Positions 18,472 through 28,211 of a stretch of 64,000 nt of DNA are shown one piece after another. The DNA lies in the NCBI RefSeq assembly GCF_018687495.1, contig NZ_CP061293.1:496001-560000 (forward strand), in the 5' to 3' direction. The first letter of the stretch is position 1. Every line of letters begins with the position of its first letter. Below the pieces are notes generated by a model. The model made no database searches. It saw only the letters and a list, made by a program, of their open reading frames with translations, and was not told where the DNA came from. The translations under genes and the position numbers were made by a program. The stretch is from Polynucleobacter sp. MWH-Svant-W18 (lineage in GTDB: Bacteria > Pseudomonadota > Gammaproteobacteria > Burkholderiales > Burkholderiaceae).

Positions 18472-20079
18472 GTGCACGACAAAATACTGATTCTCGACTT
18501 TGGTTCACAAGTAACTCAATTAATTGCTAGACGTGTACGTGATGCGCGGGTGTATTCAGAGATCCATCCTTATGACTGTGATCCAGAATTTATCCGTAAG
18601 TTCATTCAAGAGCAGGGTGGCAAAGGCATCATTCTCTCTGGAGGGCCTAGCTCTGTCACTGAGGACGGAAGTCCACGTGCTCCTCAAATTGTTTTTGAAT
18701 TAGGTGTGCCGGTATTAGGTATTTGCTATGGCATGCAAACCATGGCAACCCAATTGGGGGGCGCTGTTGCTTCTGCGGAGTCATTAGGTAAAGCACGCGA
18801 GTTTGGTTACTCAGAAGTGCGTGCACATGGCCACACTGATTTACTTAAAGGTATTGAAGATTTTTCTAACAGCGAAGGCCATGGCATTCTCAAGGTGTGG
18901 ATGAGTCATGGTGACTCAGTAACGAACCTGCCTCCATCATTTAAGTTGATGGCTTCTACTGAGTCTTGTCCTATTGCTGGCATGGCAGATGAAGAGCGTC
19001 GCTTTTACGCGTTTCAGTTTCACCCAGAGGTCACTCATACCATTCAAGGTACTGCAATCTTAGAACGTTTCGTCCATGAGATCTGCCGTTGCAAGCCTGA
19101 CTGGGTGATGGGCGATTACATTAGTGAAGCTGTCGAACATATTCGCAAACAAGTGGGTGATGAAGAGGTCATTCTGGGTTTATCTGGCGGTGTAGATTCT
19201 AGTGTTGCCGCTGCTCTAATTCACCGTGCAATTGGCGATCAATTGACTTGTGTGTTTGTTGACCATGGCCTACTTCGCTTAAACGAAGGTGATATGGTGA
19301 TGGAGATGTTTGCGCGTAATCTCGGTGTGAAAGTGATTCGAGTTGACGCCAAAGACACGTTTATGGGAAAACTGGCTGGTGTTGCCGACCCAGAGGCAAA
19401 GCGCAAAATCATCGGCAAAGAATTTGTAGAAATTTTCCAAAGCGAATCGGGCAAGATAAAAAATGCGCAGTGGCTTGCTCAAGGGACAATTTACCCTGAT
19501 GTGATTGAGTCTGCTGGCAAAGGCAAGAAGGGCGCTCATACCATTAAGAGTCACCATAACGTTGGTGGCTTGCCTGAAGATATGCATTTGAAGTTGCTTG
19601 AACCTTTGCGCGAATTGTTCAAAGATGAGGTTCGTGAGCTTGGAGTGGCATTGGGCTTACCCCGTGAAATGGTGTATCGCCATCCGTTCCCAGGCCCAGG
19701 TTTGGGGGTTCGTATCTTGGGCGAGGTCAAAGCAGAATTTGCGAGTCTTTTGCAGCGAGCTGACGCAATCTTTATTGAAGAATTACGCAATACGATTGAT
19801 GAGGTAAGTCAGAAGTCTTGGTATGACTTAACTAGTCAGGCATTTGCAGTGTTCTTGCCAGTGAAGTCTGTTGGCGTGATGGGTGATGGCAGAACCTATG
19901 AGTACGTAGTTGCACTCAGAGCGGTGCAGACTCAGGACTTTATGACGGCACATTGGGCCCATTTGCCACATGAATTACTGGGCAAAGTTTCCAATAGAAT
20001 CATCAATGAAGTCCGCGGTATCAACCGTGTGGTGTATGACATCAGCGGAAAGCCACCTGCCACCATTGAGTGGGAGTAG
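18472..20079 (+). CDS. guaA: GMP synthase (glutamine-hydrolysing)
   Basis: GuaA aminates XMP to GMP using glutamine and ATP. The 535-residue product has a class-I amidotransferase domain with Cys85 (GICYGM), His184 and Glu186 (FHPEV), an ATP-pyrophosphatase domain with SGGVDSS (about 237), and a C-terminal dimerisation domain ending [12 protein letters not shown] at 18439 would give 11 extra residues and overlap guaB; I prefer GTG at 18472 because homologues start [13 protein letters not shown] and AGGG lies 11 bases upstream. The last 15 bases are the left attachment repeat of the island that follows; the present stop is TAG, whereas the copy at the other island end has TAA. Confidence 0.95.
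20065..20079 (+). repeat. attL: left direct repeat within guaA end
   Basis: ATTGAGTGGGAGTAG encodes Ile-Glu-Trp-Glu-stop of guaA. It matches 13 of 15 positions of the copy at 28197-28211, with an uninterrupted 11-base core ATTGAGTGGGA. The crossover should lie in or next to this core. Confidence 0.8.
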
Positions 20080-20119
20080 AAATCCAGACTTAAGTTGTTG
20101 TTCTGTAACGATATTTTAG

Positions 20120-20138
20120 TTACACAAAAGTTACACAA
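20120..20138 (+). repeat. Left copy of 19-bp arm-type repeat
   Basis: TTACACAAAAGTTACACAA is itself two TTACACAA-like units. An identical 19-mer is found near the other end at 28124-28142, and a further AGTTACACA occurs at 20191-20199. Spacing from the att core and repetition at both ends suit arm-type integrase binding sites. Confidence 0.65.
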
Positions 20139-20198
20139 CCCAAAATAAGTCGTTGATTTTACTAGTCAAAGAAGCTATAGTTTTACAAATAGTTACAC

Positions 20199-20212
20199 AT
20201 AGCTGTAGCTAT
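20199..20212. promoter_or_regulatory. Inverted repeat before the integrase gene
   Basis: ATAGCT-GT-AGCTAT is a perfect palindrome 21 bases before the integrase ATG. It could be an operator or a recombinase-accessory site; only position and symmetry support this. Confidence 0.3.
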
Positions 20213-20233
20213 TCAAAACAATAGCAACTCTAA

Positions 20234-21493
20234 ATGACTAAAAAACTAAGACAAAAAGAAGGCGAAATAGCAATATACGACGAAGCTATCATCTTCAAAA
20301 GAGGGGATGTATGGCAGTTCCGTTTATGGTTAGAAAATGAACGCAAGTATGTTAGGTTAAGTCTCAAAACTACAAAAGAGTCTTTGGCAATCGAAAAGGC
20401 TCAAAAACAGTTTGTCACTATAAAAGCACAACTAGGAGCAGGAAAAACATACTACTCACTTACGGCTAAAGCTGGAGTAGAGATGTACTTGGAGTATAGA
20501 AAAGGACATATAGGTAGAGAGACAACTAAAGGTATAGTAAAAGGTAGATACGGTACTATTAAAACTCATCTAGAACATTGGTTGGATTACATAGGAAGAG
20601 ATGTAAAACTAAAAGAATTAGAGAGACTAGACTGTATAGATTATTCAGTAGAAAGGGAAAAGCCAAATAGTAAGAGACCTATAAGTCTTTCTACTATAGT
20701 TAATGAGCAGAGTACTATAAACGGAATGATGAAGTGGTTACATAGCAGAGGTGAGACATATATATCTGCTTTTGAATTCGAGACCATATCTAAAAAGAAT
20801 AAGACAGAAGAAGATATAAGAAGGTCATCATTTACAGATCAGGAAGTAAGAGATATAACTGTACTGATACCAAATTATATTAGAGAAGCTAAGAAAGATA
20901 TGACTAACTTAGCTAACAGAGCAAAGGTACTAGCAGGATACTATCTACTAATAGCTTCTATATCGGGACTTAGAACTGGAGAGCAGAAACAGCTTAAATG
21001 GAAAGATATAAAGTTTGAACAGATAAAGAAGAACAAGATAAAGATAGATGTAGTCAATATAACAGTAAGAAAAGAAACATCAAAGGTACGGAAAGCTAGA
21101 GACTTTTTTGTTAGAGATAAAGAGTACTTTGATGATCTCTTTAATCTGACAACTCCTACTCATATTACTAAACCATACGCAAATAACTTTGTCTTTAGTT
21201 ATGATGGAAAAACAGTAGTAAGTCAAAGAGCAATTCTTTATCACTTTCATAAAATACTTAAAGAGGCAGAAGTTAGTTACAAAGGTAGAGAATTAGTACC
21301 ATATAGCTTTAGACACTACTTTATTACACATAGGATAAAGAGTGGATTAAGCTATAAAGATATAGCTGATATGTGTGGCACAAGTACTACTCAAATTGAA
21401 AAGACCTACTATCATATCGACAGAGACATAAAGATAACGCAAGCATTGGCAGACTATATAGTATCCGATGAAGGCATAATAGTACCTCAATAG
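20234..21493 (+). CDS. Island tyrosine integrase
   Basis: The 419-residue site-specific recombinase presumably moves the island into and out of guaA. An N-terminal arm-binding part (1-75) and SAM-like core-binding domain (about 75-190) precede the catalytic domain, where Arg247 (SGLRTGE), Arg360 (PYSFRHYF) and the nucleophile Tyr392 or Tyr393 (KTYYH) can be seen. The residue that is His in the usual H-x-x-R box is Tyr357 here, a variation also met in other phage-type integrases. It points away from guaA, directly beside attL, as expected. Codon use is AGA/ATA-rich. Confidence 0.9.
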   Translation: MTKKLRQKEGEIAIYDEAIIFKRGDVWQFRLWLENERKYVRLSLKTTKESLAIEKAQKQFVTIKAQLGAGKTYYSLTAKAGVEMYLEYRKGHIGRETTKGIVKGRYGTIKTHLEHWLDYIGRDVKLKELERLDCIDYSVEREKPNSKRPISLSTIVNEQSTINGMMKWLHSRGETYISAFEFETISKKNKTEEDIRRSSFTDQEVRDITVLIPNYIREAKKDMTNLANRAKVLAGYYLLIASISGLRTGEQKQLKWKDIKFEQIKKNKIKIDVVNITVRKETSKVRKARDFFVRDKEYFDDLFNLTTPTHITKPYANNFVFSYDGKTVVSQRAILYHFHKILKEAEVSYKGRELVPYSFRHYFITHRIKSGLSYKDIADMCGTSTTQIEKTYYHIDRDIKITQALADYIVSDEGIIVPQ

Positions 21494-21652
21494 TATTCTA
21501 GCTATGCCTCTCGTTGATGTGGTCATCTATCTGTAAAACAGTATAAAAAACAGTAAAAACCCCACGATTTTGGCTATATTTCGGTGTTTCAATATAGTGG
21601 GGGGTGTTAGATTAAAAGTGGTGGGGGTTAGGTTCTTGGGTATGCTTGAAAA

Positions 21653-21850
21653 CTACGCACCATTTTTTTTGTGGGTAGCATTGAAAATTTGTTGCTGGGC
21701 TGTAGCGATTTTCTGTCTATTCTTTTCTGCTTTATATGCTTTCTTCGCAGTATCAACATTACGCTTCAAACTAGCTACACGAGCCTGTTGGGGGTTAAGT
21801 GGCTTTATTGGTTTAATTGGCTTGAGGGTACTAAACTCTAAGAATCTCAT
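21653..21850 (-). CDS. Small lysine-rich coiled protein, unknown function
   Basis: A 65-residue product beginning MRFLEFSTLKPIKPIKPLNP, with a KPIKPIKPLNP spacer followed by a charged helix (ARVASLKRNVDTAKKAYKAEKNRQ) that may form a coiled coil. A TTG start at 21874 would add eight residues. It is read leftward behind two other small genes and ends 159 bases from the integrase stop, convergent with it. No family recognised. The opposite-strand frame is Phe/Cys-rich and unlikely to be coding. Confidence 0.5.
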   Translation of the reverse strand: MRFLEFSTLKPIKPIKPLNPQQARVASLKRNVDTAKKAYKAEKNRQKIATAQQQIFNATHKKNGA

Positions 21851-21863
21851 ACAACTATTTACC

Positions 21864-21941
21864 AGTACCCCCAAACAACTAAAGTACTACCCTATACTTA
21901 AAGCTAGTACCCCCACTTAAGTAAAGTACTACCCTATACTT
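21864..21941. repeat. Two-copy 42-bp tandem repeat
   Basis: AGTACCCCCA followed by TAAAGTACTACCCTATACTT occurs twice with a 42-base period (the 20-mer is at 21880-21899 and 21922-21941, identical). A CTATACT-TC-AGTATAG palindrome (21934-21949) overlaps the second copy. The block lies between two small leftward genes and covers the 3' end of the upstream one. Possible iterons or an operator; two copies are too few to decide. Confidence 0.6.
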
Positions 21942-22077
21942 CAGTATAGTTAAGTACATTACCTATTCCATATTGAGCCTCACCTAGCTGTTTGGCAGAG
22001 TAAGCATTATCAGCATATATCAAAGTGAATGCTGTTTGAGTTTGATTAATGCGTACCCATAGTTTGAATTGCTTCAT
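21934..22077 (-). CDS. 47-residue protein of unknown function
   Basis: The product begins MKQFKLWVRINQTQTAFTLI and continues with a YADNAYSAKQLGEAQYG segment before ending NVLNYTEV. Its ATG overlaps the TGA of the upstream gene (ATGA on the minus strand), a strong sign that it is real and translationally coupled. The pattern of a short beta hairpin followed by a helix suggests a small folded domain. Function unknown; no signal peptide or membrane helix. Confidence 0.65.
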   Translation of the reverse strand: MKQFKLWVRINQTQTAFTLIYADNAYSAKQLGEAQYGIGNVLNYTEV

Positions 22078-22517
22078 TTCTTGAATGCCAATTTAGTAGC
22101 ATTACTAACTTCACTAATACTTTCATCTAGCTCTCCATTTTCGATAGCTAACTTAATGTTCTTAAGCGTACTAATAAGCTCATCACCAGTACTTACTTCA
22201 ATAGCATTAGCACCTTTCTTATTAAGCATAAGAGTTTTAGAACCATATTTAATAGCAAGATTGATCTTGCCTGTCTCATTAATCCAAAACCATTCTTTAA
22301 CACGCTTTACGCTTTCAATAGTTTTTCTTTCACCAGTGTGCTTATCAGTGTAAGTTTTAAGCTGTTTAGGAGCATAAACATTACCATCTTTCTTAGCTAC
22401 ACAAAGATCAATTTGTTCTTGAATCTTAGAGATAATCTTATTACGGCGATGTAGTACTGGACTAATTGAAATATGTTTTTTACTAGTTACTAGTTTAAGT
22501 GTGGATAAAGTAGCCAT
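22074..22517 (-). CDS. Island protein of unknown function, 147 residues
   Basis: The product starts MATLSTLKLVTSKKH and contains HRRNKIISKIQEQIDLCVAK, YAPKQLKTYTDKHTGERKT and KRVKEWFWINETGKINLAIKYG. I chose the ATG at 22517 because GGAG lies nine bases upstream; an earlier start at 22571 has no such site. It resembles small proteins I have seen in other proteobacterial islands, but I cannot name the family with certainty. First gene of the leftward trio, divergent from the HUH-like gene at 22696 across a 178-base gap. Confidence 0.7.
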   Translation of the reverse strand: MATLSTLKLVTSKKHISISPVLHRRNKIISKIQEQIDLCVAKKDGNVYAPKQLKTYTDKHTGERKTIESVKRVKEWFWINETGKINLAIKYGSKTLMLNKKGANAIEVSTGDELISTLKNIKLAIENGELDESISEVSNATKLAFKK

Positions 22518-22695
22518 TCTATGCTCCAAAGTAGTTGTTGAAGTAGTTAATTTACTATCAATTACTGTCAAATCCTACCATTTGCCTAAAAATTAGGCAC
22601 CAGCAAACCCAATGAATATAAGGTTTTCAAGAAATTTTGTGGATAAAGTTAGGTAGCATAAATACTCCTGTAGTAAAAAATATAGGAGAAGTGGT

Positions 22696-23244
22696 GTGGA
22701 TTCAGTTAAAGCTAATGTAAAAGAACAGGTTGTTAAATGGCTATCGAATAAAGATGAGCTAGGTCTTACGCAAGGCTTAACCGTAATGCCTAAAAAAGTA
22801 TTCTACAAATATGTGCCTAAGTCTAGATATGCTGTAGATGGGAAGGTATATAGGCACTTGAATAAGGATGAGCTTGAAAAAGCAAATACTAGACTAGTAC
22901 ATCTAATCAATAAGCTGGTACTAAAAAATGCTTATACGAGAAATGGTAGAAAGCTGATAGCTGTAGCTAGTATTGAAGGAGACAACAGTAGCTGTATAGA
23001 TTTACACAGTCACTTTCTATTAGAGAAGCCAGATAGCTACACTAACAATGAGTTTCAAGAAAAAGTATATAAGGCAATAGAGTTAAGCGGTGAATTTGAG
23101 GTAAGAAATCCAAACTATAAAGAAGGTCGAGATAGTTTAGATAATCAGTATAGATTTAAGATTGAAGAAATAGACCAAGGTTGGTCAGGATACATTACAA
23201 AAAAGATTGATAAGTTAGAGTTAAACAGACTTTACTTCTACTAG
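22696..23244 (+). CDS. Putative HUH-like replication/nicking protein
   Basis: The 182-residue product shows three elements in the order expected for rolling-circle Rep or relaxase-like HUH enzymes: a hydrophobic strand with Thr (LTQGLTVMP, about residue 25), an H-x-H motif (His104 and His106 in DLHSHFLLEKP) and a Y-x-x-K motif (Tyr166 and Lys169 in GYITKKI). The start is GTG, seven bases after AGGAGA. If correct it would nick DNA at an origin on the island and link through Tyr166. It is smaller than most phage Reps, and the motifs are read by eye, so the call is provisional. No helicase domain. Confidence 0.5.
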   Translation: MDSVKANVKEQVVKWLSNKDELGLTQGLTVMPKKVFYKYVPKSRYAVDGKVYRHLNKDELEKANTRLVHLINKLVLKNAYTRNGRKLIAVASIEGDNSSCIDLHSHFLLEKPDSYTNNEFQEKVYKAIELSGEFEVRNPNYKEGRDSLDNQYRFKIEEIDQGWSGYITKKIDKLELNRLYFY

Positions 23245-23290
23245 TCTAAGCATTCCAGTCCTTAAGTGACGCTTGCGGTTAATGGTTGAT

Positions 23291-23309
23291 AAGCACTTCT
23301 AGAGTGCTT
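23291..23309. other. Perfect hairpin AAGCACT-N5-AGTGCTT
   Basis: A seven-base perfect stem with a TCTAG loop lies 47 bases after the HUH-like gene. There is no following T-run, so it is not a standard terminator. It could be a nicking-site hairpin for the protein upstream or an operator for the next gene. Confidence 0.35.
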
Positions 23310-23381
23310 AATTAGCGTAGCTTTGCCAAAAATAAGCTAGTTGTAATAGAATATCATCAACTACATAAAAGAGATGATGAT

Positions 23382-23834
23382 ATGGATAAAAGTAAGTTTG
23401 AATCAATATTATATAGACTATCAATAAAAGCTATTCACGCATTGAGTGGTGATACAAGAGATGCTATTACAGTACAAGAGGCTTTAGAGCATAATGCTTA
23501 CTTTAGACCGAATCTATATTGCGTTCAAATTTGGAAAATAGATTTCGGTGTAGATGAAAATTATTGTGATATTAAATTTATATTGTCACCGGATTTTATG
23601 ATTGAAAATATGGTTCTTACATTAAGACATTCTTTACATAATTTACATTGGAATTTTAAGATTAAGAGATATGACTATGGTGAAGATAGTAATGGCAATA
23701 AAATTTATGAAGAAGATGGTGTTGATGGTTGGTTAGTGAAGAGCATTTTAGATGTAAATTATGATGGAATTGATAGTAAAGATTTAGACTTGAAAGAATT
23801 CACACAAGCAATACACAATACAGAAAGCAACTAG
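23382..23834 (+). CDS. Island protein of unknown function, 150 residues
   Basis: An acidic 150-residue protein with no signal peptide or membrane helix. Visible features are NLYCVQIWKIDFGVDENYCDIKF (beta strands), RHSLHNLHWNFKIKRYDYGED (His- and Trp-containing) and an acidic end. AAGAGATG precedes the ATG. I recognise no family. Codon use (AGA, ATA, TTA) agrees with the island genes. It stands alone between the HUH-like gene and the second recombinase. Confidence 0.6.
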   Translation: MDKSKFESILYRLSIKAIHALSGDTRDAITVQEALEHNAYFRPNLYCVQIWKIDFGVDENYCDIKFILSPDFMIENMVLTLRHSLHNLHWNFKIKRYDYGEDSNGNKIYEEDGVDGWLVKSILDVNYDGIDSKDLDLKEFTQAIHNTESN

Positions 23835-24139
23835 AAGCATTAAAACAAGCTACAAACGCTTCAAACTGATAAGTGAATACTAGGACAGCAGATTAGCGTA
23901 TCAACAGCTTGTAGGGCTTGTAATTAAATCATTAAATATATGTGGCTTTAAGACAACAAGCAAATACTTGAATATAAGAAAACTAGATGTTTCATTATAT
24001 TTTGGTAGTTAAGCACAGCTAAGTCATTGAATATAGGAAGAAAATTACATATATGAAAGAGATTAAAAAAGAGGTAGGAAAAACAAATACAAGAAAATAT
24101 ACTAATAATGTTGAAACTATTACATTAGAGGTAGATAAA
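23835..24139. other. Non-coding stretch in the island
   Basis: AT-rich DNA with no convincing gene. If the recombinase that follows started at its earlier ATG (24053), the gene-free part would be 218 bases. Recurrent short words (TTGAATATA, ACTTGAATATAAG, AAGCACAGCTAAG) are present, but no clear hairpin terminator or promoter. Confidence 0.5.
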
Positions 24140-24715
24140 ATGGCAAAGCAAGCTAAGACACTAAATCAGCAAGAATTTAGACGAGTATTAGATTACATAA
24201 ACACAAGAAAGCATAGTGCTAGAAATAGGACTATGCTTTTTTTGATGTATTACGCAGGAACAAGGGTTGGTGAGACCAGTGCTTTGCGTATTGAGGATGT
24301 ATTGGATATTGATGGTGCTGTAAAGAGAGAGATATTGCTTACATCCGATATGACTAAGGGTAATGTAGCTAGAACTATATTTGTAAGTGACAAGCTACAT
24401 AAAGAGCTAGAGTTGTATTTGAAAATAATTAATACTACAGATAGAAAGCAAAAGCTATTTTATTCACAGAAAAAGAAGAGTGATGGTTTTAGTCCAAATA
24501 CACTAACACAGTACTGGCACTATCTATTTAAGAAAGTAGGTTTAGATCTTTGTTCTAGCCATTCGATGAGAAGATCATTTGCTACACAAATTAGCTCAAA
24601 AGGAGTAGGTATAAGAGTGCTTCAAAAGTTAATGGGACATCGTAGTCCGCAGACAACGATGGTTTATATTGATGCTAGTGATGATATGATGAGAAAAGCA
24701 GTAGAACTTGTTTAG
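24140..24715 (+). CDS. Minimal tyrosine recombinase (catalytic domain only)
   Basis: With the ATG at 24140 (GAGG nine bases upstream) the product is 191 residues and consists of little more than a tyrosine-recombinase catalytic domain: Arg42 (GTRVGE), His141 and Arg144 (SHSMRRSFAT), His167 (GHRSP) and Tyr176 (MVYIDAS). All catalytic residues are intact, but the SAM-like core-binding domain is missing. An upstream ATG at 24053 would add a 29-residue basic leader. Such short recombinases occur in other proteobacterial islands. It may invert or excise a segment, or assist the main integrase. Confidence 0.85.
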   Translation: MAKQAKTLNQQEFRRVLDYINTRKHSARNRTMLFLMYYAGTRVGETSALRIEDVLDIDGAVKREILLTSDMTKGNVARTIFVSDKLHKELELYLKIINTTDRKQKLFYSQKKKSDGFSPNTLTQYWHYLFKKVGLDLCSSHSMRRSFATQISSKGVGIRVLQKLMGHRSPQTTMVYIDASDDMMRKAVELV

Positions 24716-24717
24716 TG

Positions 24718-25266
24718 CTACCAGCTATTCTTCATATATTCTTTTATGTCATTAGTAGCTTGTTCTAGTAGTTGATTACCATACACTCTATCGTGTTCAA
24801 TAGCTAAACTAAAGTCGAGTGTAGTCATATCATAGCTATGTGCCACTTTGGTATTCTCAAACTGTTTAATTAAGCGATCGTGACTACCTAGAAAGTAATC
24901 AATGTTTCCCTTGCCATTATTAATTCCGTTATATAAATCAATAGCTAATTCAAGTTGATTGAACTTATCTTCAGTAAAGCTAATAGAAGCTATATAGTCA
25001 TCTTTTAGTGCGTAAAGTATAGAACTAGCTTTGTCATCAACTCTATAAATCCTAAATTTAGTGTAGTTATCAAACTTCCCAGCTACACGAAAGCCCTCGC
25101 TAATCATTCTGCTGAAATAGTTATCATCCCAGTTCGCTTTAGTATCCTTTACTTCTTCAGCTATGCTACTTTGAGTAAGTCTTTTTATTTCAACTTTATT
25201 ACGCTTCGTAAATTCATCAACTAGTAGAAATTTGCCATACTGGTAATTTTTCATTCTGTTGTACAT
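24718..25266 (-). CDS. Island protein of unknown function, 182 residues
   Basis: A leftward gene convergent with the recombinase, only two bases apart. The product has basic N-terminal segments (KNYQYGKFLLVDEFTKRNKVEIKR), a central beta-rich part (NYTKFRIYRVDDKASSILYAL) and a helical, Asp/Asn-rich C-terminal part. No catalytic motif, signal peptide or membrane helix is recognised. Codon use is island-like. It could be defence, toxin or regulatory cargo; nothing visible decides. Confidence 0.6.
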   Translation of the reverse strand: MYNRMKNYQYGKFLLVDEFTKRNKVEIKRLTQSSIAEEVKDTKANWDDNYFSRMISEGFRVAGKFDNYTKFRIYRVDDKASSILYALKDDYIASISFTEDKFNQLELAIDLYNGINNGKGNIDYFLGSHDRLIKQFENTKVAHSYDMTTLDFSLAIEHDRVYGNQLLEQATNDIKEYMKNSW

Positions 25267-25384
25267 ATTATTGATCCCTAGAGCAGTAAAGTAGGCTTGA
25301 TTCTTACAAATTTTAGTATTATTGACAATAGTTTTATGTTTTAATGGTTTTATCTTGGAAGTACTTACTTAAAAGGAGAGGCAA

Positions 25385-25753
25385 ATGGGATTTTTTGACG
25401 AGTTTGGAACACCATCGGACATAAAGCCAAATAAGAAGTTAGGCACAAAGGAAATGTTGACGAATGGAATTAAAGATCAATTAGCTTTGCTAAATGGTGA
25501 AGAGGTACTCAACAATAAAGGTGAGCTGATCAGAAGTTGGTTTAGAGACGGAAGATTCATGCCGACAGTTGGTATTTTTGGTTTATTTGATGGTAAAGCT
25601 CTATCTTTCAAAAAAGGTGGAGAGATTGCTATGTTAGAAAAATTTCAAAAAGCATTTGAAGCTGGTGAGTTTGATAAAATGGTCTCAGTTGTTGATAAGA
25701 AGCGCCAGGCTAATGCAGAAAAATTAACGCAAGCTAGGGCTAAGAAAAAGTAA
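25385..25753 (+). CDS. Island protein of unknown function, 122 residues
   Basis: The ATG follows a strong AAAGGAGAGGCA ribosome site. The product starts MGFFDEFGTPSDIKP, has a middle beta-rich part (RSWFRDGRFMPTVGIFGLFDGKAL) and ends in a basic helix (VDKKRQANAEKLTQARAKKK). It is 67 bases upstream of the methyltransferase-like gene and in the same direction, so it may belong with that pair. No helix-turn-helix typical of restriction controller proteins is evident. Confidence 0.65.
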   Translation: MGFFDEFGTPSDIKPNKKLGTKEMLTNGIKDQLALLNGEEVLNNKGELIRSWFRDGRFMPTVGIFGLFDGKALSFKKGGEIAMLEKFQKAFEAGEFDKMVSVVDKKRQANAEKLTQARAKKK

Positions 25754-25820
25754 AAATATTATTGATGGAATTGGGTGTAAATCATATGCCCAATTTCATT
25801 ACAAAATATAGAAAGTAAAA

Positions 25821-27020
25821 GTGATATACAAAAGCTGGGACGAAATACCAATAGTAAGTAATGATCAACATGATCAAAAATACCTCGATATACTTAAAAA
25901 ACATAATTTAGACAAGATAGAAATTGTAGTGCCCTTAAAAGGCAGATATACAAAATCAAGAAGGTGGGAAGAGTCTGAGCTAGAAGAGATAATAAACGCA
26001 TGGATTAATAAGACAAGCATCACATTTGTTTCAGCTTGCCTTAATAGAAATCCACAAGATATGATTTACAAGTTATTGAAATATTGTAAAAGTAAAGGCA
26101 TACCATTTACTCAAAAGGAAAGATCTGAAAGTAGTAAAAATTGGACAGAGCAAGTAAAAAATTGTGCTGTAGAGTTATTTGAGTCAGGGTTGCCAGCTTG
26201 GAAAATAGCGACAACCTTTAGGGTTGATTTCGAACATGTAGAAAAAGAGTTGTTCTTAAAGAGAAATCATTATGGACATGATAAGAAAAATCCATTTGGA
26301 ATTAATACTGACCATAAGCAACTTGTTAATGAAGAATATATAGAAAATTCTAATATTCAAATTAAAAGAGTTTTTGAACCTTACGCAGGTGAAGGAAGAT
26401 TCACAAAGATATTGCTTACTTGTAGCACAATTAAAGAGATTATTTGTATTGAAAGCAACAAGGAGACTGCCGATGTTTTCAGATCATCTGTAAGGGATAA
26501 AAGAGTCAAATTTATAGAAGACGATAACCTTACTTATTTTCAAGACAAATCTTTAGGTAAATTTGATCTAATAGACTTAGATCCATTTATTACATGTAAT
26601 GAGCAATTAAAATATGTATGGGACAGACTGAATAATAAGTCTCTTCTTTGTGTTACTTTTGGTGGTGAATATAGAAGAAGTTTTATTTCTACAAATAGGA
26701 AATCAATTAGTAATAGATATGGTTTTACAAACTTTGAGATTCCTAATAAGGACTATCTTGAGATCGTACCTAGTTACTTCATTGGTTATGTAGCAAAAAT
26801 GGCAGTGGAAAACAATTTTTACTTTGATATTGTTCGAGCAGTTAGATACGCTAATAATTGTCGATTTTGGTTGCGTACTACAAAAAGCAATTCAATTTAC
26901 TGTACTAATTGGCTCTCATCAGTAGCTAGAGTTGAAGATGGAGGGACTTTATTCAAGAGTCTTCAAATGCCTAGATTTAAGGAAGTTAGAAGTGAAATTG
27001 ATAACGCAAGGTTATTATGA
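25821..27020 (+). CDS. Putative SAM-dependent methyltransferase with N-terminal DNA-binding-like region
   Basis: The 399-residue protein starts at GTG. Residues 184-194 read VFEPYAGEGRF, a class-I methyltransferase motif I (SAM binding), and residues 252-256 read DLDPF, in the place of catalytic motif IV. Residues 45-165 look like two helix-turn-helix or Myb-like segments (WEESELEEIINAWI; WKIATTFRVDFEHVEKELF). DLDPF differs from the DPPY/NPPY of adenine methyltransferases and is closer to the motif of Trm1-type tRNA guanine methyltransferases, so DNA versus RNA as target is open. It overlaps the nuclease-like gene by four bases. Island codon use. Confidence 0.6.
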   Translation: MIYKSWDEIPIVSNDQHDQKYLDILKKHNLDKIEIVVPLKGRYTKSRRWEESELEEIINAWINKTSITFVSACLNRNPQDMIYKLLKYCKSKGIPFTQKERSESSKNWTEQVKNCAVELFESGLPAWKIATTFRVDFEHVEKELFLKRNHYGHDKKNPFGINTDHKQLVNEEYIENSNIQIKRVFEPYAGEGRFTKILLTCSTIKEIICIESNKETADVFRSSVRDKRVKFIEDDNLTYFQDKSLGKFDLIDLDPFITCNEQLKYVWDRLNNKSLLCVTFGGEYRRSFISTNRKSISNRYGFTNFEIPNKDYLEIVPSYFIGYVAKMAVENNFYFDIVRAVRYANNCRFWLRTTKSNSIYCTNWLSSVARVEDGGTLFKSLQMPRFKEVRSEIDNARLL

Positions 27021-28039
27021 ATAAAAGTACTCTATATCAACATGCTACATTAGTAATGAAAGTAATTATCGATAAAATGATATTACTTTCAGAGGAAACA
27101 CTTAACTTCAATACACCATTAGATAAGCATTGGCTAGATTTAGATTCAGCAATAATTCTATTAACTGGCAAAGGTTATTCTATAGCTGAGATTCCAAGTG
27201 ACATTCAAGGAAGAAAAAACTTCTGGCTATCTAGAAGTGCGATTGCTTTTGGAATAGAAAGAGCTTCTACTGGATTGCTTTATCAAAATATACAGCCTTT
27301 TATTGATGAATTAGTTTCAAGTGCTTTTATCCAAACTGATAATTTCAATAAAGTTAGTGATCAGTGGATATATGAGAATCCACACTACTTGCCAGTTCTA
27401 ATGCATGCTATAGGAGCCTTCAGCAAAAGAGATCTTCAAAAAGATATAGGTACTGGTACGGCTAGTGATACTGGAATATCAAAACCAGTAAGCAAAAAAT
27501 TAGCCGCATTAATAGATGTTGTAGATAAAAAAACTATCCCAAATCAAGTTCAAATTAAAGAGCGAATTAAATCTACAACAGAAGGAATTGTTAGGGACTT
27601 AGTAGGAAGATTATTACTAGAGGATTTTGTGGCTCAAGCACTTAAGAAAGAGAAAGTACCTTTTCTTAGAGAAGATGAGTACGATGGAATAACTGGTGTT
27701 GTATATGATTTTAGAGCTGATTTTGTTATACCTGAACCAACCAATCCTAAGGCATTTATAGAGGTTAGAAAAAGTAGTGCTGGGCATGCTAGTTTATATG
27801 CTAAAGATAAGATGTTTTCTGCTATCAATTGGAAGGGTAAACATAAAGATTGTCTTGGGATAATGATTGTTGAGGGTCCTTGGACTCAAACTACGCTTGA
27901 GACTATGTGTAAAGTCTTTGACTATGTTATTCCTGTGGAAAGATCTTATGAAGCGGCAAAAAAAATAAGAGCATATCTAGATGGTGACTTATCAGTAAGG
28001 CGCTGGTTAATACAGTTTGAAATTAAGAAGTCAGAATAG
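27017..28039 (+). CDS. Putative PD-(D/E)xK-fold nuclease, possible restriction enzyme
   Basis: The ATG overlaps the stop of the methyltransferase-like gene (TTATGA), so both are made together. The 340-residue product is helical over about 1-200 and then has an alpha-beta core: Asp235 (DFRADFVIP), Glu249 with Arg251-Lys252 (AFIEVRKSS), then HASLYAKDKMFSAINWKG. This looks like a PD-(D/E)xK nuclease core in which the usual lysine position is Arg251, with Lys252 beside it. Adjacent methyltransferase and island setting suggest a restriction enzyme. Family not recognised with certainty. Confidence 0.55.
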   Translation: MNKSTLYQHATLVMKVIIDKMILLSEETLNFNTPLDKHWLDLDSAIILLTGKGYSIAEIPSDIQGRKNFWLSRSAIAFGIERASTGLLYQNIQPFIDELVSSAFIQTDNFNKVSDQWIYENPHYLPVLMHAIGAFSKRDLQKDIGTGTASDTGISKPVSKKLAALIDVVDKKTIPNQVQIKERIKSTTEGIVRDLVGRLLLEDFVAQALKKEKVPFLREDEYDGITGVVYDFRADFVIPEPTNPKAFIEVRKSSAGHASLYAKDKMFSAINWKGKHKDCLGIMIVEGPWTQTTLETMCKVFDYVIPVERSYEAAKKIRAYLDGDLSVRRWLIQFEIKKSE

Positions 28040-28048
28040 TTACGCGAT

Positions 28049-28142
28049 GTGTAACCACATTAGAAATATTGTTTAATACAATAAGGTTCACTTTGAAAGT
28101 CAAAACTTACAGTATTGGTTTACTTACACAAAAGTTACACAA
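28049..28142. repeat. Right arm-type repeats of the island
   Basis: TTACACAAAAGTTACACAA at 28124-28142 is identical to the left copy at 20120-20138. An inverted GTGTAAC unit lies at about 28050, just after the nuclease-like gene. Together these mirror the left-end arrangement and suit integrase arm sites. Confidence 0.6.
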
Positions 28143-28196
28143 ATGAAAAAGTCACCTATATCTTATTGTTCTATAAGTGGTTTTTTTAATGTAACT

Positions 28197-28211
28197 ATTG
28201 AGTGGGAATAA
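28197..28211 (+). repeat. attR: right direct repeat, remnant of original guaA end
   Basis: ATTGAGTGGGAATAA would encode Ile-Glu-Trp-Glu-stop, the same as the guaA end. It is therefore probably the displaced original 3' end of guaA; the island brought its own copy of these codons (with TAG) that now completes guaA. Confidence 0.8.

Follow-up and report, generated by a model that had tools for sequence, protein, structure and literature searches.

According to a 2025 review, the vast majority of DNA modification enzymes in hosts are methyltransferases that write 5-methylcytosine (5mC or m5C), N6-methyladenine (6mA or m6A) or N4-methylcytosine (4mC or m4C), and a 7-deazaguanine derivative and phosphorothioate are named there as further marks (PMC12707154). 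Trm1, the tRNA (guanine26-N2) dimethyltransferase, puts two methyl groups on G26 of tRNA by way of N2-methylguanosine (m2G), according to an excerpt of PMC4033218, and in an excerpt of PMC6547721 N2-methylguanine is only named as one of the modified DNA bases that could interfere with pairing. Searches of open-licence papers, a scope outside which REBASE lies, gave no description of a Trm1-type DNA methyltransferase or of an N2-methylguanine restriction system. Here we analyze two overlapping genes, coding for a methyltransferase and a nuclease, in a stretch of 64,000 nucleotides from Polynucleobacter sp. MWH-Svant-W18 (contig NZ_CP061293.1, positions 496,001 to 560,000), which as a whole is called the window below. 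A reading of the letters alone, the original prediction, had proposed this pair as a candidate restriction-modification (R-M)-type system. We assign a probability of about 0.83 to the pair being a Type II-like R-M system with a Trm1-derived modification enzyme. In such a system the predicted PD-(D/E)xK endonuclease would act at a specific site, cutting DNA that lacks the modification, and the Trm1-fold methyltransferase, replacing the usual DNA methyltransferase, would methylate the same target sites in DNA, which would block cutting and protect the host.

This reading is carried mainly by an exchange of partners at nuclease loci. The loci counted comprise 29 on genome contigs from many phyla, found with the nuclease alignment, five on viral contigs and the window, which makes 35, or 33 distinct loci after removal of two identical copies (L033 of L032, and L035 of L007). 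Note that the genome-contig scan was based on two peptide patterns, so the locus set is not exhaustive, and that upstream partners were typed by profile searches in all six frames. A SPPY-type methyltransferase lies directly upstream of the nuclease in 26 of the 33 distinct loci and a Trm1-type partner in five (the window, L001, L028, L031 and L032), while both types together occur in none. The two loci with neither are L002, which starts at a contig edge, and L027, which has a shortened nuclease. All 26 SPPY-type partners contain the motif [TF]SPPY, and the four that were scanned all match PADLOC Type II methyltransferase models (MTase_II, best E 2e-32 to 7e-43) and also pass the Pfam N6_N4_Mtase cut-off. 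The Trm1 motif D-x-D-P-F is present in 36/36 Trm1-type partners, 31 of them assigned indirectly by equal contig size, and (S/T/N/D)PP(Y/F/W) is found in none of the 36; an excerpt of PMC10608323 contains nothing bearing on the motif.

On the nuclease tree, partner type needs only one change (support 88/85), as compared to a mean of 19.6 with shuffled labels; 34 labels are Trm1-type, with five read from loci and 29 assigned indirectly by equal contig size. The place of L028 and the direction of the partner change are unsure because the tree is unrooted and the L028 branch is very long. The two nuclease clades do not differ in the residues of their predicted core, although identity between them averages only 43% (36-54%), and this common core suggests that they may share a cleavage site. 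Because one nuclease lineage pairs with either kind of methyltransferase and in none of the loci examined with both, the two kinds likely do the same job, namely DNA protection, and the R-M role that was originally proposed thus gains support from partner exchange with methyltransferases of the Type II kind. The same observation bears on an RNA-targeting pair, in which a Trm1-like methyltransferase would shield the tRNA or another RNA of the host from a toxin that cuts RNA, as part of a toxin-antitoxin or abortive infection system. The predicted fold and the DLDPF motif of the methyltransferase are indeed features of tRNA methyltransferases; however, this alternative is disfavoured because 26/33 nuclease loci carry a SPPY-type partner, Type II in 4/4 scanned cases, and is further opposed by a nuclease core that is alike in both partner clades and by a restriction enzyme ranking first among the structural matches to the nuclease. 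We regard it as very unlikely.

The two genes are also linked to each other. At E <= 1e-3 there are 110 homologues of the methyltransferase and 797 of the nuclease, numbers which indicate that the reading frames are not due to chance; homologue figures for the nuclease given below rest on the best 120 of the 797. The methyltransferase gene comes first, on the same strand, in 30/30 measured pairs (the window not counted), with a gap of -79 to +70 nt when the nuclease start is estimated in two ways. In the window both open reading frames and their four-base overlap are where they had been predicted (Table 1), and this overlap may couple translation of the two genes. A methyltransferase adjoins the nuclease in 31/33 distinct loci. 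When contig size is used as an indirect test of both genes lying on one contig, 32 sizes are common to the best 120 nuclease homologues and 108 methyltransferase homologues, as opposed to 1.2 on average and no more than 5 when the lists are shifted by 1-50 either way. A natural fusion (P0232) is a single chain of 729 amino acids, with the methyltransferase at residues 1-334 and the nuclease at 366-704. Finally, pairwise distances of the two proteins are correlated among 35 Trm1-type pairs (rho 0.74) and among 26 SPPY-type pairs (rho 0.77), with a correlation as high in 0/999 permutations for either pair type. Thus the check on whether homologues of the two proteins occur together has a positive outcome, both from loci that contain the two and from shared contigs and the fusion. 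Chance neighbourhood was rejected on the constant gene order, the co-divergence and the 32 shared sizes versus a mean of 1.2. A 277 amino acid sequence (P0238) joins a methyltransferase N-terminus to a nuclease C-terminus, and reflects either a deletion within the sequence or a fault of assembly.

The methyltransferase consists of a helical N-terminal part (residues ~1-150) followed by a Trm1-like domain (~153-398). Structure comparison, which had been suggested as a check, keeps this protein among the methyltransferases, with a predicted fold that matches Trm1 over residues 153-398 at 14% identity in the VIA alignment. The proposed nearness of DLDPF to Trm1 is therefore right, and in fold the likeness covers the catalytic part in its entirety. 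A BFVD search returned general methyltransferases. The motifs named for both proteins, motif I VFEPYAGEGRF (184-194) and DLDPF (252-256) in the methyltransferase and D235, E249 and R251-K252 in the nuclease, are all found where they had been placed, and alignments of 65 methyltransferases and 66 nucleases show them to be conserved. Specifically, G190, G192, D252, D254, P255 and F256 are invariant across 65 aligned methyltransferases. Curated Trm1 cut-offs are missed, both for PF02005 (21.3 vs 27 bits) and for TIGR00308 (19.4 vs 280.65). A housekeeping Trm1 was rejected, since no other gene of the genome matches PF02005 at E <= 0.01 and the methyltransferase gene itself lies below the cut-off. 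An enzyme that lacks the Trm1 C-terminal domain was also considered and dropped, since the range aligned by VIA reaches Trm1 residue 316 of the 392-residue chain and leaves only the last part of Trm1 clearly uncovered. A distant Trm1-type set is about 37-44% identical (P0207, P0211, P0213-P0217, P0219-P0223, P0225 and P0226); in the alignment, the C-terminus of P0217 and P0225 differs.

The nuclease likewise has a helical N-terminal part, followed by a core (~190-306) with D235, E249, R251-K252, H257 and K263-D264-K265. Among 66 aligned nucleases D235, R251, H257 and K263-D264-K265 are invariant, and E249 and K252 are conserved in at least 90%. No matching model was found in Pfam, PADLOC, NCBIfam or PHROGs, and a search of the PDB by sequence gave nothing significant. 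Structure comparison places this protein among the nucleases, as had been proposed, with modest significance. Its best match is PspGI, over model residues 1-324 at 11% identity in the VIA alignment, and the structurally similar Ecl18kI, EcoRII C-terminal domain, Bse634I, SgrAI and NgoMIV are also among the best matches.

Several observations weigh against a Type II-like R-M system. Specifically, Arg251 stands where the catalytic Lys would be expected, with Lys252 adjoining, and no Foldseek match to the nuclease was obtained at E <= 0.001, so that its structural significance is modest. Unrelated folds also come close below PspGI in VIA, with receiver-like folds scoring up to 8.9 and GTPases ~7.5. 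DNA binding by the N-terminal part of the methyltransferase is weakly backed, with GcrA and HTH_38 each matched in 2/65 members. PADLOC models, including those for Type II, match neither of the two window proteins at E <= 1, and the Trm1-type fusion relative P0232 has a weak match to PADLOC mads_2 (E 1.5e-4). Nucleases of the CARF type also come close below PspGI in VIA (Cdn1 9.2, Can2 9.1 and Card1 7.4) and, together with MspJI among the structural matches, they raise the question of a modification- or signal-dependent nuclease, either Type IV-like or a CARF-type effector, with a methyltransferase neighbour that serves another purpose. Such an arrangement is hard to reconcile with an upstream methyltransferase of one of two kinds in 31/33 loci, with the fusion and with the co-divergence, and Pfam finds no domain in the window nuclease; we consider it, too, very unlikely.

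In regards to the mark that a Type II-like R-M system of this kind would write, the methylated position is expected, by analogy with Trm1 and the SPPY-type enzymes, to be exocyclic, namely the amino group at guanine N2, adenine N6 or cytosine N4. Close to an even chance is given to a Trm1-type enzyme with a changed base preference that writes ordinary m6A or m4C. The geometry of motif IV is similar among methyltransferases that act on exocyclic amines, and the sister clade of the nuclease uses SPPY-type enzymes, which are often m4C enzymes. The window methyltransferase also has a weak PHROGs match to a DNA methyltransferase family (residues 180-250, E 0.003). This is countered by the constant D-x-D-P-F motif of the Trm1-type partners, none of which contains the (S/T/N/D)PP(Y/F/W) motif. 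A more tentative proposal, with the odds somewhat against it, is that the Trm1-derived enzyme writes N2-methyl- or N2,N2-dimethylguanine in DNA, at the sites that the partner endonuclease targets.

If the pair is what we propose, a restriction partner with a Trm1 fold would mean that a DNA modification enzyme arose separately out of an RNA-modifying fold. If Trm1 chemistry has been kept, guanine N2 would carry the methyl group, which would lie in the minor groove, outside of m6A, m4C and m5C, and methylome callers for those three marks are probably not aimed at it. A system with such a minor-groove guanine mark would belong to an endonuclease lineage whose other members pair with SPPY-type DNA methyltransferases. 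Because the endonuclease family exists with both partner types, the question of a shared site is directly testable. Defence annotation would also gain a missing family, as the window nuclease is unmatched in the model collections listed above.

An island of about 8.1 kb (~20079-28210), inserted in the 3' end of guaA, carries the pair at its right end (Table 1). The GC content is 0.31-0.35 inside versus 0.47-0.48 outside, with the drop between about 20 kb and 28 kb. Among 20 other genomes matching the flanking gene, six, all from the same genus, have an empty site (L041, L042, L046, L048, L049 and the genome of L053/L062), where the guaA stop is a few tens of bases from the island-flanking gene with no island between; the remaining 14 lack the guaA-end motif in the fetched stretch and are uninformative either way. 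The integrative island that had been predicted around the pair is thus borne out by the AT-rich stretch, the integrase after guaA, the repeated guaA end and the six empty sites.

Table 1. Positions in the window of the gene pair and of the elements that define its island.
Feature	Position	Strand	Remarks
Trm1-fold (predicted) SAM (S-adenosylmethionine)-dependent methyltransferase gene	25821..27020	+	399 aa, GTG start
Predicted PD-(D/E)xK restriction endonuclease gene	27017..28039	+	340 aa
ATGA stop/start overlap of methyltransferase and nuclease genes	27017..27020	+	four bases
Tyrosine integrase of the pair-bearing island	20234..21493	+	full-length, after guaA
Left attachment core, guaA 3' end	20062..20078	+	predicted from repeat
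Right attachment core, second guaA-end copy	28194..28210	+	17 nt, 88% identical

Additional features are present within the island. A 31-nt repeat, 87% identical and holding AGTTACACAA, is located just inside both ends (20115-20145 and 28119-28149) and possibly represents arm-type integrase sites. Two tandem 42-nt copies, 81% identical, lie 3' of the integrase gene (21864-21947). A second tyrosine recombinase of 220 aa (24053-24715, +) is matched by Pfam only over residues 36-210. Near the pair, a 182 aa protein (24718-25266, -) has a weak match to the PADLOC candidate PDC-M01B (E 0.0036) and no match in Pfam, NCBIfam or PHROGs. A DUF6641 protein is also encoded (22074-22571, -; E 5.8e-12).

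In regards to occurrence, among 274 genomes drawn from the same class only the window's own gave a match at E <= 1e-10. A plasmid collection searched with each protein, a phage collection searched with the methyltransferase only (the nuclease was not tried there) and Escherichia coli genomes searched with the DNA of the pair all gave nothing. Viral contigs gave no match to the single nuclease sequence; alignments later found loci there, five with that of the nuclease and three with the other.

Comparison with known systems puts the pair closest to Type II R-M. As in those systems, a methyltransferase and a restriction-enzyme-like nuclease are encoded by adjacent co-oriented genes, the nuclease has a predicted restriction-enzyme fold with PD-(D/E)xK-type residues, and its sister clade pairs with SPPY-type (PF01555 N6_N4_Mtase) partners. 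In contrast, the modification gene of the window has a predicted Trm1 fold with DLDPF, no (S/T/N/D)PP(Y/F/W) and no PADLOC match. Membership in Type II calls for a known class of DNA methyltransferase (m6A, m4C or m5C); the window enzyme falls in none of them, the PHROGs match (E 0.003) being the sole contrary sign, and the pair is for this reason called Type II-like and not filed as a Type II member. The nuclease shares its predicted fold with the PspGI group, although it is only 11% identical to PspGI and has invariant R251, H257 and K263-D264-K265. PspGI-like enzymes have a K-x3-R-(D/E)-R signature, which an alignment judged by eye, without residue-level superposition, does not reveal at K252 of the window nuclease. 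Finally, the methyltransferase resembles Trm1 (PF02005; 3axs, 2dul) in its predicted fold and its DPF motif, and differs from it in lying below the family cut-offs, in ~150 extra helical N-terminal residues and in being paired with a nuclease.
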